NCBI GenBank assembly: GCA_009726065.1
Contig: WLNA01000004.1
Span: 1-40,672, forward strand
Reading direction: 5' to 3'
DNA length: 40,672 nucleotides
Source of the DNA: Actinomycetota bacterium
GTDB taxonomy: Bacteria; Actinomycetota; Acidimicrobiia; Acidimicrobiales; RAAP-2
The notes beneath the pieces are model-generated. The model was not told the origin of the DNA. It saw only the letters and a program-made list of their open reading frames with translations, and made no database searches. Position numbers and translations under genes: made by a program. Shown here piece by piece: positions 24,908 to 40,672 of this stretch (positions within the stretch are counted from its first letter, which is position 1; every line of letters begins with the position of its first letter).

Positions 24908-25813
24908 GTGGAGCCCTACAAAATCCTTCTCTTTTACCGATTTACTCCACTGGCTGACCCTGAGGCCATCCGACTGTGGCAGTGGACGCTTTGCGACAGT
25001 CTCGGATTGCGGGGTCGAATTATCATTTCCTCACACGGGATCAACGGAACAGTCGGTGGTCCACTCAGCTCAGTCAAGAAGTACATCCGAATGACTAAAG
25101 AGTGGCCGGGCTTTAAAGACGTTGATTTCAAATGGTCCGAAGGCACCGGACACGATTTTCCCCGACTCCAAGTTCGTGTACGAGACGAGCTGGTTTCCTT
25201 TGGGGCACCGGGAGACTTGAACGTCGATCAAGCAGGCGTAGTCCATGGTGGACCACATCTATCACCCAGCCAGGTGCATGACCTCGTTGCGACACGGGGC
25301 GACGAGGTGGTCTTCTTTGACGGCAGAAATGCTTTCGAGGCGGAGATCGGTCGATTTAAGAATGCCATTGTTCCCAATGTGGAAACGACGCATGATTTTG
25401 TCGAAGTTCTCGAGAGTGGCGTATACGACCACCTCAAAGACAAACCGATTATTACCTACTGCACTGGTGGTGTGCGCTGTGAAGTACTGAGCTCCCTCAT
25501 GCTGCAACGGGGGTTCCAGGAGGTCTACCAAGTTGAAGGTGGCATTGTCCGATACGGCGAGACCTTCGGTAACGAAGGACTCTGGGAGGGATCACTCTTT
25601 ATCTTTGACGGTCGGATGAGTCAAGAGTTCGGCCCGAACACCAAAATCATCAGCGTGTGCGAACGGTGCACCGCGCCCACAAGTCAGTACTACAACTGTG
25701 CCAATTTGGCGTGTCGACAACTCATCTTGTTGTGCGACACATGCATCACAATGAACGGGTCAACCAACTGCCGAGAACAGCACCACGGGGCCCGGTACCG
25801 TTCGAAGCTCTAG
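24908..25813 (+). CDS. trhO: tRNA uridine(34) 5-hydroxylase TrhO (YceA/UPF0176 rhodanese family)
   Basis: 301 residues from GTG. It has the three-part layout of TrhO: an N-terminal ferredoxin-like domain ([15 protein letters not shown], then [13 protein letters not shown]), a central rhodanese domain with [19 protein letters not shown] and the catalytic loop YCTGGVRCE (Cys185), and a C-terminal Cys-rich tail with CERC, CANLAC and CDTC clusters likely to bind a metal. TrhO uses O2 to hydroxylate U34 in the wobble position, the first step to (c)mo5U. The length and motif order match the family. The end overlaps the copper-monooxygenase gene by four bases (CTAG). Confidence 0.95.
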
Positions 25814-26994
25814 CTGCCCGCTCCGGACGAAACAATCAACGTACCGAGGCACATTTCATCGCTTGATCCGTCACCCCATGTGATGTAGCGCGGGGGCAAT
25901 TTTTTCGTCTGCGGATTTGATTTCCGTAGGGCCGGGGAGTACGTGCAGGTCACCTTGACATAGTCACCCTTGGTCATCGTGACGGGATTCGCCAAGGCGT
26001 AGCCAAACTGATTGTCGAAGTTGTACGAAGGTACAACCAGCAATGTCTCTGAGTTAGCTGTTCCGCACCTCGAATCTTGATGGCAAAGCACGACACTAAA
26101 GGTTTTACCCAGCATGTGCATGTGCGGCCAAATCTTATGAATGGTTACGGGGGTGTTATCGTCAAATAACCACGCGCACGACGCCGATGCGGCGTTCGGT
26201 GATGATGCGCTCGTCGGGAGACCACTGCGATTGCAAACCGCCTCGAGAAGTTGCGTAAACGAACGCGCTTCCGGACCAAAGCGCTTAGCCAAATCTGCTA
26301 ACGACGCATCGTGCTTGCACAGTGGGTACTTCTTGACGTCGTTGTAGGGCGCCACGCACGGCATGTCTGGTGCCGCCACGTAGTGACGCGAGGTGAGCGC
26401 CACTCGGCTAGAAGTCGAAGTAGCTTCGCTCCAGACATTAAATCGAGAAGTTACCGCTTTCTTCCCGGCTAATGAGTTGTAGTGGATTTGGAGAACTATG
26501 AGAGACCCGGCCGGAACGGCAGTTCCGTAACCGGCCTTCGCGACGTCAGCACCGTGGCCCGGCGACCAGCCGTAGAGCCACGGGAGTGCCGCCAGTCCAC
26601 CCATCGAAGTGGCGCCAAGGGGAGACGAAAAACATGTCCAGCCCTTAGTCCCAGTGCGATCGAGCGCTTTAACTTGAGCCACTACCGCTGGTGAAGCGAT
26701 ATAGGCGATTGCGTGATGCAATTCCTTCTTATTCGCCTGGGACTTGGAGGTATCCGCCAGGAACTCCGCCTTGGTAATCATTTGACTCGTGGCAAAGTGG
26801 GGATCAATCCAGGTGCAGCGATACTCGTCGGTGGCATCTTTGGGTGGCGATGGAGCGTGGGTAACCGAGGCCGTCAGATTTGGAGTCGCGGCGGCATGCG
26901 ACACCACAGCCGATTGAGCATTGGAAGTCCGTGCCAGACCCATAATCATCAGTGATCCAGTCAAGAGAAAGGCAATGAGCGAACGTTTCTTCAT
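25810..26994 (-). CDS. Secreted copper type II monooxygenase-like protein (PHM/DBH-like)
   Basis: 394 residues with a signal peptide ([20 protein letters not shown], cleavage after an ASNA-type site). The sequence matches the two-domain copper type II ascorbate-dependent monooxygenase fold (PHM, dopamine beta-monooxygenase). All six copper ligands of PHM have counterparts: His93-His94 in ELHHAIAY and His171 in LQIHYNS (CuH site), His291 and His293 in PHMHMLGK and Met381 in SDEMCLG (CuM site). Spacing agrees except for an insertion of about 50 residues between His171 and His291, rich in Cys. Many Cys suggest disulfides in the mature exported protein. In animals these enzymes hydroxylate a C-H bond with O2; the bacterial substrate is unknown. 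It has its own leaderless-like promoter. Confidence 0.8.
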
Positions 26995-27524: not shown

Positions 27525-28775
27525 ATGAATTCAACTGACACGCTCTGGGTCATTCTCAGCGCCGCACTCGTTCTCTTTATGACCCCTGGACTCGCCCTGT
27601 TCTATGGCGGAATGGTTCGCAGCAAGAACGTCCTCGCAATAATGATGAATAGCCTCGCCGCAATGGCGGTCGTCACGGTTCTCTGGGTCGCCATTGCCGG
27701 TTCACTCTCCTTTGGTAGCGACGTTGGCGGTGGACTAATTGGTGACTGGTCGTTAGCGGGGCTCGCCCATATTCCGGCGACTCTCCCGGGACTTTCCGGA
27801 GTCCACGCCTCTCCCCTCGCAATTCTGATTTACCAAATGATGTTTCCTATCATCACGGCCGCGCTAATCAGCGGTGGCACAACTGATCGAATTAAGTTCT
27901 CGTCCTTTGTAGTTCTGATTTCCATCTGGACGTTGGCCGTCTACGCACCTCTGGCGCACTGGGTTTTTAGCCCCAACGGATGGTTGGCCCAACGCGGCGT
28001 CTTGGACTTCGCCGGTGGAACGGTCGTCGAAATTAACTCCGGGTTTTCTACCCTGGCCGTCGTCTTAGTACTGGGCCCGCGCAAGGGGTGGCCCCGTGAT
28101 GCCATGACTCCTCACTCCGTCCCGCTCAGTCTTCTAGGACTGGGTATCTTGTGGTTTGGATGGCTTGGTTTTAACGGAGGATCCTCACTGGCAATGAACG
28201 GTGTCGCAGTCTCGGCCGTGCTCAACACGCAGCTGGCTGCTGCCGCGGGACTCATCGGCTGGCTGATCTACGAACGGACGACCGAGCACTACGCCACCAC
28301 TTTGGGGGCGGCATCTGGTGGCGTGGCCGGCATGGTGGCCATCACGCCATGCGCCGGATTTGTTCAGCCTTACGCCGCATTGATTATTGGACTTATTGCC
28401 GGGCTGGCCTGCTCCAAAGCTGTACGTATGAAATTCAAACTTGGCATTGACGACTCCTTAGACGTCCTTGGCGTTCACGGTGTTGGTGGAGTCATTGGCA
28501 TGGTCCTCCTTGGTCTATTCGCGTCGAAATCAATCAACGCGGCTGGCACTGATGGACTTCTGCAGGGTGGTGGTTTTGCGCTACTTGGCAATGAGGTGTT
28601 AGCCGTCGTCGTGACGGGGGCCTTTTCCTTTGGGGTCACGTGGCTTATTGCGCAGGCCATCGCCAAAACTATCGGCCTACGTGTGAGCGAAGAAGATGAA
28701 CTGAAGGGTCTTGACCTCACACAGCACGCCGAGAGCGCTTACTCCGGTGGAGGATCAGGGCGCTTTAGCAGTTAA
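27525..28775 (+). CDS. amtB: Ammonium transporter (Amt/MEP/Rh family)
   Basis: 416 residues, eleven hydrophobic segments. Family blocks are all there: MTPGLALFYGGMVRSKNVL at the start, APLAHWVFSPNGWLAQRGVLDFAGGTVVEINSG split across the middle of the sequence with the first pore His, and DVLGVHGVGGVIG with the second. It conducts ammonium into the cell and is gated by the P-II protein encoded just upstream. ATG at 27525 is used; a TTG at 27516 is a weak alternative. The TAG stop of glnB lies in a TAGGAT hexamer 8 nt before the ATG, so an internal promoter is possible in addition to the operon. Its stop TAA is shared with the convergent esterase (TTAA). Confidence 0.97.
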   Translation: MNSTDTLWVILSAALVLFMTPGLALFYGGMVRSKNVLAIMMNSLAAMAVVTVLWVAIAGSLSFGSDVGGGLIGDWSLAGLAHIPATLPGLSGVHASPLAILIYQMMFPIITAALISGGTTDRIKFSSFVVLISIWTLAVYAPLAHWVFSPNGWLAQRGVLDFAGGTVVEINSGFSTLAVVLVLGPRKGWPRDAMTPHSVPLSLLGLGILWFGWLGFNGGSSLAMNGVAVSAVLNTQLAAAAGLIGWLIYERTTEHYATTLGAASGGVAGMVAITPCAGFVQPYAALIIGLIAGLACSKAVRMKFKLGIDDSLDVLGVHGVGGVIGMVLLGLFASKSINAAGTDGLLQGGGFALLGNEVLAVVVTGAFSFGVTWLIAQAIAKTIGLRVSEEDELKGLDLTQHAESAYSGGGSGRFSS

Positions 28776-29716
28776 GAAATTCCTATCCCGCGGGCTAGTG
28801 CTGCCATCTGTTCCGTCACGATTCGCTTTGATACCTCGGCCTTACGGTCGATTATGCTCCCGTGAAATGTACCGGGGTAGGCGTGAAGCTCAACGTGCAC
28901 ACCGGAACGCATCAACGTCTGGGCGTAGGCGATGCCTTCGTCCCGGAGGGGGTCAAACTCCATAACGGATATGTACGCCGGAGGGACATGTTCCAGAGCC
29001 TCCGCACGGGCCGGGGCCGCGTAAATCGGTACATCTCCGCCGTTAAGTCCGCACAGGTAATACTGCCAACTCAATTCCGCATTGGGTCGATTCCACACGG
29101 GTGTGTCCACGTACGCCACCATGCTGGGTGTTTCGAGTCGATCATCAAGTTCGGGAATATCCAACAGCTGGAAGGCAATAGGCAGTTGAGCCCCATCACG
29201 GTTGAACAGTGTCAAACCTGCAGCGAGACCGGCACCGGCCGATGTCCCAAATAGCGCCACTCGATTCGGATCCACTCCGAGTGCGGCGGACTCCGAATGG
29301 ATCCACTGCAGCGCTGCGGCGCAGTCCATGAGACCGGCCGGGTAGGGAAATTCGGGAGCTAGGCGGTAGGCCACCGAAACAAAAACTGCCGGCAAGACGT
29401 GTGCGAAGCCAACGGCAATAGGAAGATCAACGATGACACTCCCGACCGCAAATCCCCCACCATGAATTCGAAGGACGCACGGTGCGTTATCGGGAACACT
29501 GGACGACCGATAGACATGAACCGTAACGCTTGGTTGACCAGGCAAACCAGGCACCTCGTGTGCAGTGATTTCTAAACCGGACGTGTCGAGCTTACGAGCC
29601 ACCCGCTCGGCATTAGCGGCCTGAAAGGACCGAGCTGTTGTGAGATCAGCGAACGTTGCCGATCGGGGAAGGATTGTAAGGATGTTCTCGAAGTCGGCAT
29701 CGAAGTCGTAGCTCAT
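28772..29716 (-). CDS. Alpha/beta hydrolase of the hormone-sensitive lipase family (esterase)
   Basis: 314 residues. It has the family IV (HSL) pattern: oxyanion motif LRIHGGGFAVGSV, nucleophile elbow FGTSAGAGLAAGL (GxSAG), catalytic Asp in EFDPLRDEG and His in YPGTFHGSI. Such enzymes cleave short-chain esters or acylated small molecules in the cytoplasm. It lies 9 nt behind the DHA2 exporter gene on the same strand, which suggests a shared transcript, yet it also has TAGGAT six bases before its ATG. A link between export and ester cleavage, for instance of an acylated compound, is possible but untested. Confidence 0.93.
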   Translation of the reverse strand: MSYDFDADFENILTILPRSATFADLTTARSFQAANAERVARKLDTSGLEITAHEVPGLPGQPSVTVHVYRSSSVPDNAPCVLRIHGGGFAVGSVIVDLPIAVGFAHVLPAVFVSVAYRLAPEFPYPAGLMDCAAALQWIHSESAALGVDPNRVALFGTSAGAGLAAGLTLFNRDGAQLPIAFQLLDIPELDDRLETPSMVAYVDTPVWNRPNAELSWQYYLCGLNGGDVPIYAAPARAEALEHVPPAYISVMEFDPLRDEGIAYAQTLMRSGVHVELHAYPGTFHGSIIDRKAEVSKRIVTEQMAALARGIGIS

Positions 29717-29722
29717 AAGAGA

Positions 29723-29728
29723 ATCCTA
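29723..29728 (-). promoter_or_regulatory. Putative leaderless -10 element (TAGGAT) of the esterase, containing the stop of the upstream gene
   Basis: On the minus strand TAGGAT, 6 nt (tctctt), then ATG at 29716. The TAG of the hexamer is the stop codon of the DHA2 gene. Confidence 0.45.
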
Positions 29729-31177
29729 CGAGTTAGCAGGCGGAGTCGAAGGAGTGCGAAAAACTGAGAGAACTTTCTCGTCATCAATGAAGAGCGCCGT
29801 TATCGCACCAAGAAAGGCAAAGATGCACGTCCACATGAACGGAACCTTGTAGGCGTTATACGCATTGACTAGATAGTCAACGTGTACCGGAATCTTGTTG
29901 AGTTGCGACATCAGTACCGAAATGAGGACGGCGATACCCAACGAACTCGCGACTTGACGTTGCGTCGAAAATAGCGCACTCGCACGTCCGGTATCCAGCG
30001 GTTGAATCTGCGAAAAAGCCGCCGCTTGGAGTGGGATAAAGACAAAGGCCCAGCAGAGGCCGCGGCTAAAGAGGATTGCTCGGTACACCCAGAGATTGGT
30101 ATCCGGCGTCGTCCACAGCAGCAGCAGCATGACAAAGCCAGCCACGACGAGTCCAGCCGCAATGAGTCGACGAGGTCCAACCTTGGGGTAGAGCTTCCGT
30201 GCCACCTGGCTCATCAAAATCACACCGATGGCTTGAGGAAATGTGGTGAGTCCAGATTCAGAGGGGGAGAGTCCTCGCACACCTTGCAGCATCAGGGGCA
30301 TGATCAAAACAAGTCCGAAAAAACTGGCCGTGGCGAATACCGACGTGATGTTCGTCATAGTAAAAACTCGATCACTGAATAGTCTGAGTGCCAGAATCGG
30401 TTCGGCAATGCGCCGTTCCACAAAAATGAGCAGCGCTCCAAGAGAAGCACCAATCACCAAGGAAGACAGCACGCGCGTTGAGGTCCACCCTTCCAGCTCG
30501 ACTTGGTTCAACCCGTAGAGAATGGCCCCCAGAGAAATCGCCGAAAGGAAGAATCCTGCGGGATCAAATTTTCCAGCGGTGGGGTTTTTGTATTCCTTAA
30601 GGCGCAAAATACCAATGACGAAGGCCACGATTCCGAATGGCAGGTTGATAAAAAATATCCAGCGCCAACCCAATCCATCAGTGATAAAACCACCGAGCAC
30701 CGGGCCCGTTGCTGGAGCCAAGAGAGTCGGAATAGAGAGAATGGCACCGACCTTGGCCCGCTCAATGGGCGGGTACTCCCGATAGAGCATGGCCGTGCCG
30801 ACGGGCGCCATCATGCCCCCACCGATGCCTTGAAGAAACCGAAACGCTGTCAGCTGGTCGATCGACTGCGCCGTGCCACACAGTATGGAAGCGGCGGTAA
30901 ACATGAAGAGGGCAAACAGGAACACTTTCTTGGTCCCAAACTTGTCACCGAGCCAACCCGAGGCCGGGATCCAAACGGCTAACGACAACAGATAGCCCAG
31001 TATGACCCAAGCCAGATCGGTGGGCGAACCGTGGTGAAGCTCTGTACCAATTGCAGGCAGAGCGGTATTAACAATTGTTCCATCCATGATGTCCATGAAC
31101 ATGGCCATCACAAAGACAGTGGCGATTGCCGCACGGTCACTGATTGCGTAAATCCCTCGTCGTCGACCAGTTTCCAT
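29726..31177 (-). CDS. DHA2-family (EmrB/QacA-like) MFS exporter, 14 TM
   Basis: 483 residues from ATG at 31177 (AAGGAA upstream); the frame open to 31384 is not protein-like. The hydrophobic profile and length fit fourteen helices. Markers are MDIMDGTIVNTALPAIG in helix 1, the SGWLGDKFGTKKVFL motif A, the LQGIGGGMMAPVGTAM motif in helix 4, and the APATGPVLGGFITDGLGWRWIFFINLP antiporter motif C region with its following loop. These drug:H+ antiporters export hydrophobic cations, lipids or fatty acids. The adjacent esterase may be functionally linked. No TetR-type regulator is visible, though 31178-31430 is a long divergent promoter region shared with oleA. Confidence 0.93.
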   Translation of the reverse strand: METGRRRGIYAISDRAAIATVFVMAMFMDIMDGTIVNTALPAIGTELHHGSPTDLAWVILGYLLSLAVWIPASGWLGDKFGTKKVFLFALFMFTAASILCGTAQSIDQLTAFRFLQGIGGGMMAPVGTAMLYREYPPIERAKVGAILSIPTLLAPATGPVLGGFITDGLGWRWIFFINLPFGIVAFVIGILRLKEYKNPTAGKFDPAGFFLSAISLGAILYGLNQVELEGWTSTRVLSSLVIGASLGALLIFVERRIAEPILALRLFSDRVFTMTNITSVFATASFFGLVLIMPLMLQGVRGLSPSESGLTTFPQAIGVILMSQVARKLYPKVGPRRLIAAGLVVAGFVMLLLLWTTPDTNLWVYRAILFSRGLCWAFVFIPLQAAAFSQIQPLDTGRASALFSTQRQVASSLGIAVLISVLMSQLNKIPVHVDYLVNAYNAYKVPFMWTCIFAFLGAITALFIDDEKVLSVFRTPSTPPANS

Positions 31178-31430
31178 TTCGTTCCTTCGTAGCCTTGGCA
31201 ACCTAGCGGTTGAAGCAATCAGCCTCTTCAAGCCCTGGGAGTGGGCACTATGGTCCGTACATATTGCAGTCGAACCAGCGATTCTCGAAATTCCAATACA
31301 TACACCGCTTGCGTGATGCCCCCATATGCTCCCCAATGGCTCCCAAGCCTTTTCCACAATGAAAAAGACCTCTAATCGGCACATCTCGCTGCTCGGTAAG
31401 CATTATCCCGAATACCCCTAACCTAAACGA
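31178..31430. other. 253-bp divergent intergenic region between the DHA2 exporter and the ole operon
   Basis: It contains the oleA -10 (TAACCT at 31419-31424) and presumably the exporter's promoter. No gene is convincing. Nothing resembling a known operator was recognised, although the shared space would allow joint control. Confidence 0.4.
31419..31424 (+). promoter_or_regulatory. Putative leaderless -10 element (TAACCT) of the oleABCD operon
   Basis: TAACCT, 6 nt (aaacga), then GTG at 31431. No Shine-Dalgarno. Confidence 0.5.
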
Positions 31431-32444
31431 GTGCCTTCACCAGTCCAGTTTTCGCAATCGTATCTTTGGAGTTTGGGCCAGGTCGAAGCACCGGAAATAG
31501 TGAAGTCGTCATGGATTGATGAACAGTTAGCCGGCACGTACGAACGAATCGGCATCCGGGCGGGATTACTCGAAGCCGTAGCAGGTATTTCCGAACGCCG
31601 CTGGTGGCCCAGAGAGACCTGTTTCGATGACGCCGCAGCTCAAGCGGGCAAAGTGGCCCTGGATCGAGCCGGTGTGCTGCCGAGCGAAGTTGATCTCCTC
31701 ATTTCCACTTCCGTCTGCAAGCACCACCTGGAACCCAGCGTGGCCTGCGCTGTGCACTTTCGACTCGGCCTGAGTGCCAACTGTCTGAACTTCGACCTTG
31801 GCAATGCCTGCCTGGGATTCATGAATGCCATGTCGGTGGGTGCTATGGCGATTGAAACAGGCATGGCAAAGACGGTGCTGATTGTTGACGGCGAAGGTAG
31901 TCGCCAGCCACAGGAGGCGACCATCGCCAGACTGCAGGGACCAGAAACGACATTGCAAGATTTTTTCGACCAGTTCGCCTCACTCACCTTGGGCTCCGGC
32001 GCCGCGGCGTTAGTGATGGGTGGGCCCCGCCAAGGCGCTCACCAATTTCTTGGCGGCGTTAGCCGTGCGGCCACGAACCATCATGACCTCTGCGTCGGCG
32101 ATCTCGACAGCATGCGGACAAATACAGCGGAACTGTTGACGGCAGGACTAGACATTGGTCGAGAAGCGTTTGACGCCGCTCTGGCGCAAGGGTGGGACTG
32201 GACGAACTGTGACCGCTACGTAATGCACCAAGTCTCCAAGCCTCATACCGAAAAGTTATGCGAACGACTGGGTATTGATCTCGCCCGAGTTCCCCTGACG
32301 TATCCGCACTTCGGCAACATGGGGCCGGCGGCCGTACCGTTTACCTTGGCCAGCATTGCTGACGATATTTCCGAGGGTGAACGCATTCTCTTGATGGGAA
32401 TCGGCTCAGGACTGAACTGTGCCGCCACCGAAATTATCTGGTAG
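31431..32444 (+). CDS. oleA: OleA, thiolase-fold acyl-CoA condensing enzyme of olefin biosynthesis
   Basis: 337 residues from GTG. It condenses two fatty acyl-CoAs head-to-head to a 2-alkyl-3-ketoacid, the first step to long-chain olefins. The FabH-like thiolase fold is clear. Catalytic Cys127 lies in FDLGNACLGF, His266 in YVMHQVS, and Asn296 in HFGNMGPAAV. Glu101 in KHHLEPSVA corresponds to the distinctive OleA glutamate that separates OleA from FabH and is thought to act as the base in Claisen condensation. Gene context (oleBC and oleD directly downstream) makes the assignment firm. Length is normal. The gap to oleBC is 7 nt. Confidence 0.95.
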   Translation: MPSPVQFSQSYLWSLGQVEAPEIVKSSWIDEQLAGTYERIGIRAGLLEAVAGISERRWWPRETCFDDAAAQAGKVALDRAGVLPSEVDLLISTSVCKHHLEPSVACAVHFRLGLSANCLNFDLGNACLGFMNAMSVGAMAIETGMAKTVLIVDGEGSRQPQEATIARLQGPETTLQDFFDQFASLTLGSGAAALVMGGPRQGAHQFLGGVSRAATNHHDLCVGDLDSMRTNTAELLTAGLDIGREAFDAALAQGWDWTNCDRYVMHQVSKPHTEKLCERLGIDLARVPLTYPHFGNMGPAAVPFTLASIADDISEGERILLMGIGSGLNCAATEIIW

Positions 32445-32451
32445 CTAAGTC

Positions 32452-34860
32452 GTGAGTCGCTCTACGCCTAGCGATGCGGAGCTCGAACAATTCGGCATTA
32501 TCCCGTCGTGGTCACGACGAGTCACATTCATGGGTGCCGATGGCTCTCCGGTCACGTGGAATGTGCTGGATACTGGTTCAGGAGTCAAGGGCACCATAGT
32601 TTGCGTTCACGGTAACCCCACCTGGTCCTATCTCTGGCGCAACCTTCTCCACAATCTCTCACCGGAGTGGCGCGTTGTTGCAATCGACCAGACGGGCATG
32701 GGCTACTCAGAACGTGGCCGACCTCGAGTGCTCGCACAGAGAATTGCTGAATTGGTTGCTTTCTGTCGCCAAGAGATAGCCGGCGATTTTGTTCTGGCGG
32801 CACATGATTGGGGTGGGGCAGTCGCGATGGGCGCCGCGCCGCAGCTCCCGGTGATCCGCATGATTTTGTCTAATACTGCCGCCGCCAAACCCGATGGAGT
32901 GAGAGTTCCACCATTAATTGGTATCGCCCGACGGGCAGCACCGCTCATTTGTCAGTGGACGCTGGGCTTCGTACAGGGCACTGCACTTATGACCGAACGC
33001 CAACATCACCTGGCCCTACGAGCCCCCTACAAGGGTTCTCGACGCCGTCGGGCGGTTGCCGATTTCGTTATCGACATACCAGTGCATCCCTCCGATACGT
33101 CGTATATGGCCCTCACTGGGGTTGCCAGTGGTATTGAAGCACTAACCATTCCAACGCTGTTGGCGTGGGGTGGCCGAGACCCGGTTTTTCATGATCGTTT
33201 TTTACGAGACCTTCAACGTCGAATCCCCCATGCCGACGTCGAACGATTCACTAACTGCGGCCATCTCGCTCCCCTAGACCCGGCATTCGCGCCCCTAGTG
33301 GCGCAGTGGCTGGCCACTCCAGCGCACGGGAGCAGACCAATCCCAATCAGTAGGACGACCTCGGGCATCTATCAGTCCATTGACCGTCACGAGCACGACG
33401 ACGAAGCGATTGTTGACGGTCCGCAAGGATCACTGACGTGGGCTGAACTGGCGAGCCGGCGAGCCGACATTGCTGAAACGCTGCGCAGTCAAGGTATAAA
33501 GACGGGCGACAAAGTCGCGCTCTTAGTCAAGCCGAGTGGCGAATTACTTGTCGCCGTGGCCGCACTCTGGGCCCTCGGGGCTGTGCCGGTGGTGGCCGAT
33601 CTCAATGGCGGAATAAAGCAGTTACGCAATCTCTTTCGCACTGCAGCCCCCACGGCCGTAATTGGCTCGAAGATGACAGTGCGCTTTAGTCGTCTCGTGC
33701 GACTCGCTCCTGGCACCCAGCATGGAGTTCTCGGCCGTCGCTCACGCCGCGCTCTTGAAAATGGTCTGTTACTACCTCGCAGTGAATTTGAACCACTGCG
33801 GAGCGAAATGATGGCGGCCATCGTTCATACGTCCGGTGCTACCGGTCCGGCGAAACCAGTTCGTTATAGCCATGGTGCCCTGGAAGCACAGCGTGACCTC
33901 TTTGCCACCATGTTCCCGCTCGCGCCCGGAGAAGCCTTTACCACTTCCTTTGCACCGTTTTTATTGTTGGCTCCGGCTATTGAACGGACCTGCCTCTTAC
34001 CTAACATTCGCTTTGACCGACCGAGCCTCCTGCGAATCAGTCATCTGCGAGAGCTGGCGGGGTTTGCGCCTTTGGGATTGGCATGGTTCTCACCCGCAGC
34101 GGCCCGCGGCGTCATAACTGCACCTCATGAAAATGGCGTCGACATTCGAAGAGTGCTACTCGCAGGCGCACCCATCGACGACGAACTTCGAGTTTCAGTG
34201 AGAGCAGCTACCCACGGCGAGGTATCCGCGCCGTACGGAATGACGGAATGTCTGCCCGTGACCGATGGCGGCACCCTCGGTCACGGCCTCTTTGGTGGCA
34301 CGAACACGGGCCATCCCGCCGAAAACTGCCAAGTCCGAATTGTGGCACTTGACGATATTGACGCTGAACTACCAATCGGGCAGTGGGGCGAGATTCTTAT
34401 TTCTGCCCCGTGGATGTTTGACCGGTACGAACAGCATTGGCTCGAAAACGAAAAAACCGCGGTGTACGTCGATGGCCTCCGATATCACCGAACTGGCGAT
34501 GTTGGCTATATCGAAGAGGGCGTTCTGTTTCATCTTGGTCGGAGAACTCACGTCATTGAGCATTCTCAAGGGCCAATTGCGAGCGTTGCCGTAGAGGAAC
34601 GGGTGCAGCGTGCCCTTAAAACTCAAGTGGCTGCAGTCGGGGTCGGACCAGTCGGGGCACAAGTAATCGTCGTGGTCATCGCAAGTGGTGGCAAACTGCG
34701 CCTCGCCGATGTTCAACTGGCAGAATTGGTTAGAACTCTTGTCGATCACAACGTTGCGGCCGTTCTTGAAGGCTCACTGCCACTGGACAGCCGCCACCAG
34801 TCAAAGATTGATCGAGTGACCCTCGCCAACCTTGTTTCGGATTTCCTCAGCGGACGATGA
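32452..34860 (+). CDS. oleBC: OleBC fusion: beta-lactone decarboxylase (OleB) plus beta-lactone synthetase (OleC)
   Basis: 802 residues from GTG. Residues 1-295 are OleB, an alpha/beta-hydrolase of the haloalkane dehalogenase type: HGNPTWSY loop, nucleophile Asp119 in AAHDWGG, Asp243 in GGRDPVF, His271 in NCGHLAP. It decarboxylates a cis-beta-lactone to an olefin. Residues about 310-802 are OleC, an acyl-adenylate-forming enzyme: P-loop VHTSGATGPAKP (about 459-469), SAPYGMTEC, YHRTGDVGY and a C-terminal SRHQSKIDR lysine region. OleC makes the beta-lactone from the beta-hydroxyacid with ATP. The fusion is known from actinobacteria such as Micrococcus luteus; in Xanthomonas OleB and OleC are separate. 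The stop overlaps oleD by four bases (ATGA). Confidence 0.95.
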   Translation: MSRSTPSDAELEQFGIIPSWSRRVTFMGADGSPVTWNVLDTGSGVKGTIVCVHGNPTWSYLWRNLLHNLSPEWRVVAIDQTGMGYSERGRPRVLAQRIAELVAFCRQEIAGDFVLAAHDWGGAVAMGAAPQLPVIRMILSNTAAAKPDGVRVPPLIGIARRAAPLICQWTLGFVQGTALMTERQHHLALRAPYKGSRRRRAVADFVIDIPVHPSDTSYMALTGVASGIEALTIPTLLAWGGRDPVFHDRFLRDLQRRIPHADVERFTNCGHLAPLDPAFAPLVAQWLATPAHGSRPIPISRTTSGIYQSIDRHEHDDEAIVDGPQGSLTWAELASRRADIAETLRSQGIKTGDKVALLVKPSGELLVAVAALWALGAVPVVADLNGGIKQLRNLFRTAAPTAVIGSKMTVRFSRLVRLAPGTQHGVLGRRSRRALENGLLLPRSEFEPLRSEMMAAIVHTSGATGPAKPVRYSHGALEAQRDLFATMFPLAPGEAFTTSFAPFLLLAPAIERTCLLPNIRFDRPSLLRISHLRELAGFAPLGLAWFSPAAARGVITAPHENGVDIRRVLLAGAPIDDELRVSVRAATHGEVSAPYGMTECLPVTDGGTLGHGLFGGTNTGHPAENCQVRIVALDDIDAELPIGQWGEILISAPWMFDRYEQHWLENEKTAVYVDGLRYHRTGDVGYIEEGVLFHLGRRTHVIEHSQGPIASVAVEERVQRALKTQVAAVGVGPVGAQVIVVVIASGGKLRLADVQLAELVRTLVDHNVAAVLEGSLPLDSRHQSKIDRVTLANLVSDFLSGR

Positions 34861-35801
34861 AAGTCTTTCTCACTGGCGCAACAAGTTTGCTCGGTCGCAC
34901 CGTGGCCGAGCAACTCCTCCGACGCGGTGACCTGGTAACGACCTACCAGCGCCAACCAAGTGGTTTAGCGACTCCAGAGGTTCTTGGTGATATTCGCGAC
35001 GCGGAAAAACTTTTGTTGGCCGCCAGGAGCCACGATGCCGTTATTCACCTGGCCGCGCTGGTTGCACCTCGTCCGGCGTGGTCGGATGCTGACAGCGTCA
35101 ACCGACTCGGTACGATGTATGCCCGTCAGGCCGCCGAACTATGCGGGCGCTTCGTCTACATCTCGTCACCCTCGGTCGCCTTTAACGGCGTGGCCATCAT
35201 GGGCTCCCCTACTGAATTGCCCACGTACGACGGTAGCGATCGCTATACGAGGTCCAAGGTTGCGGCCGAATTGGTAGCGTTGACTAATCCCAAAGTGCCT
35301 ACAGTCGTCATTCGCCCACACCTCGTCTGGGGACCAAACGACACTCAGTTGGTTGCTCGCATTGTTACTCGAGCACGTCAGGGGCGGCTCGTCCTACCCG
35401 ATCACGGTCGAGCTCTAATTGATTCGACGTACGTCGACGACGCCGCCGCCGCCATTGTGGCTGGCCTGGACGCAACTGACTCGAATAGCTCCGCCGTGGG
35501 GCATGCTTGGACAATCACGGGGAACGACCCGCGACCAATAGCCGAACTGGTTCACGGCATTCTCTTGGCTGCGGGGATTAAATCATCGCCAAAATCGATC
35601 AGTGCGCCACTCGCTAAGCGTCTGGGTTGGTTCTCGGAACACCTATGGTTGGGCGGTGAGCCGCCGTTAACAAAATTCGCCGCAGAGCAGTTATCGCTTG
35701 CTCATTGGTTCGACCAACGAGCGGTTCATGAGGCGCTGCACTGGCGACCCGTCGTTAGCGTCGAAAAGGGACTCCAATTGCTCGCAGATTCGTTCCAGTG
35801 A
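34857..35801 (+). CDS. oleD: OleD, NADPH-dependent 2-alkyl-3-ketoacid reductase
   Basis: 314 residues, an extended-SDR (3-beta-HSD-like) protein. It begins MKVFLTGATSLLG (Gly-rich dinucleotide motif), has VIHLAALVAP, VYISSPSVAFNG with catalytic Ser, and YTRSKVAAE with Tyr and Lys, then VIRPHLVWGPND and the STYVDDAAAAI substrate segment. OleD reduces the OleA product to the 2-alkyl-3-hydroxyacid used by OleC. ATGA overlap with oleBC shows translational coupling. The operon thus contains everything to turn acyl-CoAs into a long-chain olefin: OleA, OleD, OleC and OleB. The downstream gap before the convergent glycosyltransferase is 120 bp with no clear terminator. Confidence 0.95.
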   Translation: MKVFLTGATSLLGRTVAEQLLRRGDLVTTYQRQPSGLATPEVLGDIRDAEKLLLAARSHDAVIHLAALVAPRPAWSDADSVNRLGTMYARQAAELCGRFVYISSPSVAFNGVAIMGSPTELPTYDGSDRYTRSKVAAELVALTNPKVPTVVIRPHLVWGPNDTQLVARIVTRARQGRLVLPDHGRALIDSTYVDDAAAAIVAGLDATDSNSSAVGHAWTITGNDPRPIAELVHGILLAAGIKSSPKSISAPLAKRLGWFSEHLWLGGEPPLTKFAAEQLSLAHWFDQRAVHEALHWRPVVSVEKGLQLLADSFQ

Positions 35802-35921: not shown

Positions 35922-37172
35922 CTAGGCACGCATCCTCATTGCAGTGACGTTGAGTTCCCTCGCCCATCGAAGTGCGTCCGCCTCTCCTGCTCCGGTGGCG
36001 GAGGCATCGAGTTGAGGTTGTGGCACTTCATGCACCGCCATGCGTAAAAGCGCGCCAACCAACATGACCCATCGGCTAGATGACATGGGTGGACCAACGA
36101 GTACAACGAGGCGAAGTCCCCGGCAACGGAGCCACGCTAAGCGGAAGACGTTTCGAGGGTTGACTGAAACGGCAGGATTACCCACCTCGCGGCAAGCGTT
36201 CATCAAGGTCTCCGAGCACGTCGATTCAGCACAGACAATTGCAATACGGGCTCCCCGAGGAATCACGGCCGAAGCCAATTCAAAATCGAAGGCCAGTGTT
36301 TGAATCAAGTGGTCAATCGCGACCCGATCCAGCCGAGGCGTATTTCTATTTTTGAGTAGCCAAAATCCGGTCAGTGACACCCACGGAAGCACTACGAAGG
36401 GTGTTCGTCGTGAGAGCAGAGTCACCATCGTTCCCAACATGACAAGAATCATGACGTTCCAAAACAACGCTGCGGGGTGTGTCTTGAGCCAAGTCCACCG
36501 TTGATCTCGGTGATATCGAACGATGGTCCCGGACCCTCGCCCCCATCGCCAGGCGCGGCGTAAGTTAAGTCCGATATTTCCCCAGGGCATCTCCATGACT
36601 GCTTCGTGAATCACAAAACAATCGATACCTTGATTACGAAAACGGAGTAGTAAGTCATTGTCAGAGCCGTAGTTGTAGCGCTCATCAAATCCCCCTACTT
36701 GATTAAAGACTTCACGCGTGAATGCCACGTTGGCGGTCGGAGCATTTATTGTGATGGTGCCCGTGGGCGATGGGTTGAATGTCTCAAACGACCCAGCTTC
36801 ACTCGGAACGATTGGACCGCTGACATACTGGTACGTTCCAGCCACTAATGGGGCCGTGATGTTGCGTAGCCAATCACCGGCCGGTCGGCCACCGGCATCG
36901 CAGAAGGCAACAATGTCAGTATCGGCTTGTCGAACTCCTATATTGCGTTGGTGGGGAATTGAAGATTTCCTCCAAAAGGGCTTGACGTAATCGACCCAGG
37001 CCACCCAGGGATTCGCCACGCGTATATGGTCCAATCTTCCCTCTGACGCGTCAATTACCAAGCAGCGCGCCGCCATGCTTTCGCACTGCGGGCGAAGGAG
37101 GTCCAGTGACTCCGCAAGAGATGGCTCATCCTTTGACAGCAGCACCACAGCAACGGACATTGGAGTTTTCAT
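35922..37172 (-). CDS. Family-2 glycosyltransferase with extra C-terminal domain
   Basis: 416 residues. The first ~230 form a GT-A domain: SVAVVLLSKDEPSL, SIPHQRNIGVRQADTDIV, then FCDAGGRP where GT2 enzymes have the metal-binding DxD (here Asp-Ala-Gly), and FNQVGGFDERYNYGSDNDLLLRF as the acceptor-site block. It is followed by one or two hydrophobic segments (about 236-275) and a separate C-terminal region of about 130 residues (from IPRGARIAIVCAEST) that I do not recognise. It probably transfers a sugar to a polysaccharide or glycolipid; donor and acceptor unknown. The start may be the first ATG (37172) or one at 37160. Downstream in the pair of glycosyltransferase genes. Confidence 0.82.
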   Translation of the reverse strand: MKTPMSVAVVLLSKDEPSLAESLDLLRPQCESMAARCLVIDASEGRLDHIRVANPWVAWVDYVKPFWRKSSIPHQRNIGVRQADTDIVAFCDAGGRPAGDWLRNITAPLVAGTYQYVSGPIVPSEAGSFETFNPSPTGTITINAPTANVAFTREVFNQVGGFDERYNYGSDNDLLLRFRNQGIDCFVIHEAVMEMPWGNIGLNLRRAWRWGRGSGTIVRYHRDQRWTWLKTHPAALFWNVMILVMLGTMVTLLSRRTPFVVLPWVSLTGFWLLKNRNTPRLDRVAIDHLIQTLAFDFELASAVIPRGARIAIVCAESTCSETLMNACREVGNPAVSVNPRNVFRLAWLRCRGLRLVVLVGPPMSSSRWVMLVGALLRMAVHEVPQPQLDASATGAGEADALRWARELNVTAMRMRA

Positions 37173-37311
37173 CAGTCAGCGTTCTCTGACGCGAAATTAT
37201 TTTGCATAGCAGTCAATAACCAAGGCCCTCTGTGGGGAAGTAGCAAGGTAGTTGCCTTGAAGGCTGGTGACGCAGATTTAGTCATACGTTGATCCGATGC
37301 CATGTCTCCAC

Positions 37312-38388
37312 CTACTTCGTTTCTTTACTTCGAAGCCAGCCACCGACGAACCCGATAATCCCAGAAATCTCCTCGAGGGCGATCACTAACCGGAAGAGAG
37401 GTTTCTCAGTCCATCGAGCCTTACTAGAAGAGCTGGTCGGACGTGCCGCAATCATGTACGGCGCCAGCATGGCACACGCCAAAAGAAGCCACCAGCTACG
37501 AATGCCAAGGAATTTGAAACAGATAGCACCTGCCCCCGCGGCCATTACAAGTAAGCCGATAGGGCCAACCGACGGAATGCCACCTTGTTCGGCAAAATCA
37601 CGACCCGATCCACGGCCGTACGCGTATGCACGTCGGAAGGTGTCACGCAACTTGGGATCAAAATTATGATGCATCACTATGGATGGAGAGCACCAGACTG
37701 ATTCTTGACCCCAACGCTGCTGAATGGCAGCACAGACGGGAATTTCGTCTCCTCCAAATCGTCGACGGACATCGAAGCCACCGATCTCTTTGAGCGCATC
37801 GCGGCGAAAAGACATATTGGCCCCGACCAGGACAAATACTGGCTGAGGGCTGTCGCTCGATATCACGATGCCTTCGTTGCGAAGATAGAGCCAGAGACGT
37901 AGAAGGAAGCCGGCACCACTAAGTCGAAGTGAGGCCGGCGCAAGCGTGTGGTGGAATTGATTGAAGCGGCGATTAAATGTATCGGTGGCATGTGATTGAA
38001 CCGTGCCGCCCAATGCCTGGATGTCTCCATTCAGCTTCGCCCATTCAGTCACTAGATTCGCCACCCAGCCTGGTGGTGGGATGCAATCATCGTCCGTAAA
38101 CGCGACGAGTGGTGCGAGTGACGCTTCAATTCCCAAATTTCGTGCCGCCGAAAGCCCAACATTCGTAGGCGAGGAGATTAATCGAACTGGAAACTTCCGA
38201 ACAACTTCAGACGTTAGATCGGTTGATCCATCATCAACCACAATAATTTCCATTTCGCCGGCGAAATTCTGACTCGTCAGGGCTCTCAACGTATCGCGGA
38301 TGGTGCCTTCGCCGTTATGGGTGCATACCACCACGCTGATTACAGGGGCGGAACCATCATGCGACATCTGAGGAGGAGCTGCGTTCAC
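37312..38388 (-). CDS. Family-2 glycosyltransferase
   Basis: 358 residues from GTG. Canonical GT2 catalytic domain: VISVVVCTHNGEGTI, EIIVVDDGSTD, GLSAARNLGIEAS, VAFTDDDCIPPPGW (DxD), LVGANMSFRRDALKEIGGFD, and FGGDEIPVCAAI. Two or three hydrophobic segments at the C-terminus (about 280-345) suggest membrane association. It likely adds a sugar to a cell-surface polymer or lipid-linked precursor. The next gene on this strand, 139 nt further, is another GT2, so the two may work in one pathway; the gap contains a small CAAGG-CCTTG hairpin (37244-37259), so they may not be one transcript. Confidence 0.9.
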   Translation of the reverse strand: MNAAPPQMSHDGSAPVISVVVCTHNGEGTIRDTLRALTSQNFAGEMEIIVVDDGSTDLTSEVVRKFPVRLISSPTNVGLSAARNLGIEASLAPLVAFTDDDCIPPPGWVANLVTEWAKLNGDIQALGGTVQSHATDTFNRRFNQFHHTLAPASLRLSGAGFLLRLWLYLRNEGIVISSDSPQPVFVLVGANMSFRRDALKEIGGFDVRRRFGGDEIPVCAAIQQRWGQESVWCSPSIVMHHNFDPKLRDTFRRAYAYGRGSGRDFAEQGGIPSVGPIGLLVMAAGAGAICFKFLGIRSWWLLLACAMLAPYMIAARPTSSSSKARWTEKPLFRLVIALEEISGIIGFVGGWLRSKETK

Positions 38389-38496: not shown

Positions 38497-39111
38497 GTGA
38501 GCGCAACAACCTCTAACTGGTCCGAGGTTGCCGCCGTCTTGGACGAGGGCTGGATCCTTCACCTCGCAATCTTTAGTCTCGACCAAACGCCCATCTCGCT
38601 GCCCCTGCTCTACGTTCGCGACGAGCACTCGCTCTTGCTGCACGGGGCGGTAGGGAACGAACTACTTCGTGGTGTCACCGGTACCGACATCGCCTCGGGT
38701 ACCGTCACGTTGATTGACGGGTTAGTGGCGGCGCGTTCGGCTTTCCAAAGCTCCGTGGCCTACCGTTCGGTGATACTCCGTGGTCGGCTTACATCCCTAA
38801 ACGGTGGCGCCAAAGAGGCCGCTCTTATTCGGATAACCGATGGTCTCATCCCGGGACGGCGAGCAGAGATTCGGGAATCAACGACGGGCGAAGTTCGAGC
38901 CACCACCGTCTTGCGTTTAGAAATACTCGAGGCCACACTGCGGGTCAGCCCCTTGACCGTTGACGACACGCCGAGTGACCGCAACAGTGACACCTGGGCC
39001 GGCGTCGTGCCGATCAACCTCAACGCTGATCTGCCTCAAGCCGCTCAGGATGTGCCAAGTAGCACGGTGGTTCCTCCAAGCATTCGTGCCTGGCAGCCAC
39101 GTCAGGGATAG
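38497..39111 (+). CDS. Pyridoxamine 5'-phosphate oxidase-like FMN-binding protein
   Basis: 204 residues from GTG. The split-barrel flavin-binding fold is indicated by WILHLAIFSLDQTPISLPLLYVRDEHSLLLHG, read in parts: LHLAIFSLDQ and ISLPLLYVRD match the first strands, LLLHGAVGN the phosphate/FMN region, and FQSSVAYRSVILRGRL the strand that follows. Such flavin-nucleotide-binding proteins include nitroimidazole-resistance and FMN-dependent reductases; few are characterised, so no substrate is given. It is monocistronic, ending ahead of a hairpin region. The C-terminal ~40 residues are variable. Confidence 0.85.
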   Translation: MSATTSNWSEVAAVLDEGWILHLAIFSLDQTPISLPLLYVRDEHSLLLHGAVGNELLRGVTGTDIASGTVTLIDGLVAARSAFQSSVAYRSVILRGRLTSLNGGAKEAALIRITDGLIPGRRAEIRESTTGEVRATTVLRLEILEATLRVSPLTVDDTPSDRNSDTWAGVVPINLNADLPQAAQDVPSSTVVPPSIRAWQPRQG

Positions 39112-40470: not shown

Positions 40471-40672
40471 TGTCCTGACCCCCTTCAATCGGTCCATCTC
40501 TTATGACTAGAGAGCCCCAGATAAGACTGGGAATGGAGGTTGACCATGAAGAGAACCAGGCACACGCCCGAACAGATAGTTAGCAAACTAAGAGAAGCCG
40601 ATCAACTGCTGGCGGAGTACTCGCCACTGGACGAAGTGGTTCGATCACTCGGTGTTTCTATCCAGACCTATC
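40471..40672 (+). mobile_element. Left end of an IS3-family insertion sequence (truncated by window edge)
   Basis: A candidate left terminal inverted repeat, TGTCCTGACCCCCTTCAATC, begins at 40471 and is followed after a short leader by a typical OrfA. TG at the tip and a CTGACCCCC core agree with IR sequences of this family. The right end, second frame and target duplication are outside the window. The element could be intact. Confidence 0.7.
40546..40672 (+). CDS. IS3-family transposase OrfA, N-terminal fragment
   Basis: ATG at 40546 has GGAGG seven bases upstream. The visible 42 residues begin MKRTRHTPEQIVSKLREADQ and go on with LLAEYSPLDEVVRSLGVSIQTY, the N-terminal helix-turn-helix of IS3/IS407-type OrfA proteins, which bind the terminal repeats. 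The rest of OrfA and the frameshift-produced OrfB with the DDE catalytic domain lie beyond the window. Confidence 0.9.
   Translation, partial: MKRTRHTPEQIVSKLREADQLLAEYSPLDEVVRSLGVSIQTY

Follow-up and report, generated by a model that had tools for sequence, protein, structure and literature searches.

The fusion of oleB with oleC and the chemistry of the fused protein are established in Actinobacteria (PMC7158056, PMC7064751). According to a survey published in 2020, oleABCD is confined, among Gram-positive orders, to the Micrococcales, and the ole genes are almost always uniformly present or absent within a genus (PMC7158056). A paper of 2026 records oleBC in MAGs of the Actinobacteriota, and its main text does not name the Acidimicrobiia (PMC13170169). 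Our literature search found no paper joining the Acidimicrobiia with oleABCD, although later surveys beyond that search may have done so.

Here, we describe an ole locus in a MAG of the Acidimicrobiia (Actinomycetota) that is 66% complete. The stretch of DNA analysed, hereafter “the window”, is 40,672 nucleotides long. It very probably carries a functional three-gene ole operon for the head-to-head synthesis of long-chain olefins, judging from its sequence and that of its relatives. The features discussed below are as follows.

31419–31424, + strand: −10 box TAACCT, 6 nt ahead of the oleA GTG (leaderless start)
31431–32444, + strand: oleA, GTG start, 337 aa, uninterrupted ORF
32452–34860, + strand: oleBC (oleB–oleC fusion), GTG start, 802 aa, uninterrupted ORF; OleB, residues 1–290; linker, about 291–305; OleC, residues 306–802
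34857–35801, + strand: oleD, ATG start, 314 aa, uninterrupted ORF
29726–31384, − strand: DHA2 exporter, with a better start near 31180, divergent from ole
28772–29716, − strand: lipase-like esterase, paired with the DHA2 exporter
1983–2954: desaturase (PF00487), 28 kb from ole

With the ole genes of Micrococcus luteus and other Micrococcales (PMC7158056, PMC7064751), the locus shares the gene order, the OleBC fusion, the OleA signature, the catalytic residues and the three-gene operon. In comparison with those systems, known here from their descriptions, it differs in its host class, in a promoter that is leaderless in families f1 and f41, and in a distribution that is patchy rather than genus-wide. 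By analogy, the window operon would provide the same four activities as Xanthomonas campestris oleABCD, with which it shares the OleA fold and its catalytic residues, but in X. campestris oleB and oleC are separate genes, whereas those of the window are fused. The OleC half of the window protein is also shorter and divergent: the 802-aa OleBC is 33–39% identical to the fusions of two families outside the order, f54 and f55, which are 886–977 aa long where complete.

A complete oleA–oleBC–oleD operon had been proposed from the sequence alone, and family models, residue conservation, synteny among relatives and purifying selection all bear this out. All three genes are co-directional, with 7 nt between oleA and oleBC and a 4-nt ATGA overlap between oleBC and oleD, exactly as that reading had given them. 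Homologues of oleB, oleC and oleD lie within 5 kb of oleA, contiguous with it and on the same strand. The sequence-only reading had placed the operon at 31419–35801; its end holds, whereas position 31419 opens the −10 box, and the GTG of oleA follows at 31431.

OleA scores 403.7 bits against NCBIfam PRK09258 (cut-off 285). Its best match in the PDB is the OleA of X. campestris (E 2e-78; entries 3row, 5vxf and others). By alignment offset, with query residue 8 placed on residue 24 of the chain in 5vxf, X. campestris OleA has C143, E117, H285 and N315 where the window protein has C127, E101, H266 and N296. The four window residues, which the sequence-only reading had named as needed for the condensation, are invariant in 27 sequences. 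The published OleA signature, EPxx[AS]x(14,18)DxxNACL (PMC7158056), lies at residues 101–128 and is found in all 27 proteins (the window and 26 relatives); a FabH-like protein that the window genome encodes on contig 41 lacks it.

The fused protein has the Pfam domains Abhydrolase_1 (48–276) and AMP-binding (311–659), and its AF2 model (pLDDT 87.6, pTM 0.84) has two domains joined by a weak linker at about residues 291–305. OleB has been placed in subfamily III of the haloalkane dehalogenases, for which a catalytic pentad has been described in DhmeA (PMC10503415). The corresponding residues here, N55, D119, W120, D243 and H271, are invariant in the 21–23 OleBC sequences compared, among them Asp119 and His271, the two singled out by the earlier reading. 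In the OleC half we recognized the motifs TSGATGPAK (460–468), YGMTE (595–599), TGDV (681–684) and SKIDR (784–788), and this half of the model matches the ANL (adenylate-forming) enzymes, the best hits having TM-scores by target of 0.75–0.80. OleD keeps Y130, K134 and S103, invariant in 19 sequences, together with the nucleotide motif GATSLLG; the YTRSK motif noted earlier is Y130-TRS-K134 and is intact.

It should be mentioned that both OleC and OleD miss the NCBIfam equivalog cut-offs, which are a database criterion and do not define the pathway. The olefin beta-lactone synthetase models NF045786 and NF045785 align with OleC over nearly their whole length at 166 bits, against a cut-off of 900, and the best NCBIfam model for OleD is oxyalk_red_OleD (NF042422, 2-alkyl-3-oxoalkanoate reductase; E 3e-63, 214 bits, cut-off 580). 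Fused OleBC (265–299 bits) and OleD (329 bits) from elsewhere in the phylum also fall below these cut-offs, and we therefore ascribe the low scores to the divergence of the fused type. The models, named after proteins of Xanthomonas and Shewanella, appear to cover only those types. Among the OleBC proteins scored, those of f1 and f41 form the most divergent clade, on a long stem (0.82) in the tree.

We infer the ole reactions, their product and its location from characterised homologues. Transcription would start at the leaderless promoter directly upstream of oleA. OleA, a protein of the thiolase fold, would condense two long-chain acyl-CoAs head to head in a non-decarboxylative Claisen condensation, yielding a 2-alkyl-3-ketoacid, and OleD, an extended SDR, would reduce its keto group at the expense of NAD(P)H. 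The OleC half (beta-lactone synthetase, ANL fold) would then use ATP to close a beta-lactone ring, and the OleB half (beta-lactone decarboxylase, haloalkane-dehalogenase-like) would release CO2 to leave a cis internal alkene. The alkene would probably stay in the membranes.

The Pfam domains, taken by themselves, are all generic, and they would also suit ordinary paralogues of FabH, acyl-CoA ligase, hydrolase and SDR that have come to lie side by side by chance. We consider this scarcely credible, in view of the OleA score well above its model cut-off, the signature that separates OleA from the FabH-like protein of the same genome, and a gene order that is kept across families. A more specific alternative is that the OleB half works slowly or not at all and that the operon makes a beta-lactone natural product resembling lipstatin or nocardiolactone, exported by the DHA2 pump. 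Homologues of OleA, OleC and OleD are indeed shared with such clusters, being common to beta-lactone pathways (PMC7064751), the pump is adjacent to ole, and an orthologue of at least 66% identity is present in five of the nine ole-positive members of the genus but in only one of the other 90. On the contrary, the published beta-lactone clusters, of the oleACD type, are without oleB (PMC7064751), whereas oleB is here fused in frame to oleC and conserved, with a dN/dS of 0.05 and an invariant pentad. The pump, moreover, lies near ole in just two genomes, that of the window and its closest relative, G016, and its co-occurrence with ole is inseparable from relatedness (p 0.5). Because OleB keeps the whole catalytic pentad, a beta-lactone end product is improbable, and this suggestion of the sequence-only reading is not favoured. 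We attach a similarly small probability to a shifted function in the f1/f41 OleBC, with its long stem and shortened OleC half, such that the main product would be a beta-lactone or another neutral lipid in place of the usual long-chain alkene.

A further alternative holds that the operon is an accessory which this lineage has only recently gained or is losing, and which does little there. It would account for the presence of ole in just nine of the 99 members of the genus, for the rejection of genus monophyly in the ole tree, and for the differing sites at which close relatives carry the genes. Nevertheless, the reading frames are intact, dN/dS is far under 1, the promoter is conserved, and the ole tree is congruent at the family level, so that we regard this alternative as very improbable. 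An operon that functions in head-to-head olefin synthesis is thus the reading that we retain.

The sequence upstream of oleA reads TAACCT-AAACGA-GTG. Each of the 13 loci in the f1/f41 clade has a −10 box of this kind (TAACCT, TAGCCT, TATCCT or TAGGCT) 6–7 nt ahead of the oleA start; the box has a pairwise identity of 0.91, compared with 0.26–0.36 for blocks from −55 to −15. TANNNT at such a distance is a mark of leaderless genes, which are normal in Actinobacteria (PMC3160421), and the leaderless-type promoter recognized in the initial reading is backed by this conservation. The other ole families seem, read by eye, to have purine-rich, Shine-Dalgarno-like oleA leaders. When 27 genes of the window were checked, about half proved to have a TANNNT box 6–8 nt before the called start or a neighbouring start; the ole promoter therefore follows the house style of this genome, in which leaderless transcription looks common on the evidence of the window (1–40,672). 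An Rfam search for RNA elements gave no match.

Two kinds of partner had been suggested for the operon. It does diverge from an exporter–esterase pair in the window, but these are not conserved partners: pump and esterase both adjoin ole only in the window genome. G016 has the pump, with an acyltransferase gene intervening; in G052, the pump is beside an amt gene on a contig other than that of ole; and in the remaining ole-positive genomes that carry one it is located elsewhere. In total, six of the 99 genus members have the orthologue. When relatedness was taken into account with a tree of two ABC-transporter proteins, five independent pairs remained, two concordant and three uninformative, and on this basis the partnership is not supported. 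The desaturase proposed as a source of unsaturated chains is real, as its PF00487 match attests, but it is not a consistent companion of ole, being undetected in the ole-positive genomes G052 and G263 and represented by just a 37% match in G040.

At the other loci, ole is flanked by genes for a methyltransferase, a SpoU methylase, a phosphotriesterase, an alanine racemase, a luciferase-like monooxygenase, SufB and a sulfite reductase. None recurs among the neighbours checked, except the sulfite reductase in two close relatives (G005 and G051). As the flanking genes differ at nearly every locus, the operon appears to stand alone, with no conserved partners.

Several other features of the window deserve a record. 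Two glycosyltransferase-2 genes, weakly MftF-like, occupy 35922–38388 between oleD and a PNPOx gene; they are missing from this place in G016, where PNPOx directly follows oleD. The desaturase and PNPOx (38497–39111) genes have dS values of 0.3–0.4 against G016, compared with 0.9–2.1 for six other window genes, which suggests recent exchange. The gene at 25810–26994 encodes a protein whose N-terminus is signal-like and which carries PF03712, the C-terminal domain of copper type II ascorbate-dependent monooxygenases. The last bases, 40471–40672, are probably the end of an insertion sequence (TGTCCTGACCCCC..., then the ORF MKRTRHTPEQIVSKLREADQLLAEY), and the window contig stops within this element. 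The ORF resembles an IS3-type OrfA; its 42-aa stub gave no Pfam match. A 60-base stretch here is identical to one in G040, 314 nt downstream of oleD (L033:12676–12735).

Within the genus of the window, OleA (E <= 1e-60) is present in nine of 99 genomes. Full or partial OleBC was found in 18 of the 396 genomes sampled across the phylum, from families f1, f7 and f41 within the order and f54 and f55 outside it; further OleBC in f13 and f27 brings the families of the order to five (f1, f7, f13, f27 and f41). The order and strand of oleA, oleBC and oleD are identical at every complete locus among the relatives, in these five families and in two more of the phylum, and loci cut by contig ends have the same gene order as far as the sequence reaches. 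In one scan, the only OleBC matches among named contigs were CANGMP010000039.1 (Acidimicrobiaceae bacterium isolate Jr-7aug17-11) and a single distant one from the Desulfobulbaceae, and no plasmid copies of ole were found. Some of the absences may be assembly gaps, because the contig of G519, the sister of the ole-positive G040, breaks off 2.1 kb from where ole would be expected.

In a concatenated ole tree, f1 (99% SH-aLRT) is sister to f41, with f7 and f13 next. The gene tree thus follows the families, which marks ole as a long-resident gene set, and descent at this level has been mostly vertical. Within the family, monophyly of the genus is rejected (AU p 2e-35), a sign that genera have exchanged the operon or that old losses have occurred. 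The dN/dS values are 0.023–0.025 for oleA, 0.06 for oleBC, 0.05 for its oleB part and 0.12–0.16 for the 3' end of oleBC with oleD, all of them rough because dS is near saturation.

A separate observation concerns G016, in which both ole contigs (L042 and L043) break inside oleBC. Against window positions 34577–35561, the 3' end of oleBC and oleD of this genome have a protein identity of only 64–68% (69% in DNA), whereas its OleA is 96% identical in protein, the next gene downstream is 92% identical in DNA, and the background over another 8 kb is 80% in DNA. This divergence reflects either a recombination mosaic or an assembly fault.

The window operon is otherwise an ordinary example of a well-known three-gene set. 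What is modestly new is the occurrence of ole in several families of this order of the Acidimicrobiia and its patchiness within a genus, with assembly gaps as a caveat; the host class and the nine of 99 genomes depart from both of the statements of the 2020 survey cited at the outset (PMC7158056). The mechanism is not new, but the genes for olefin biosynthesis are hereby extended to several families of the order, and their presence there may help in interpreting the long-chain alkenes of environmental lipid samples.
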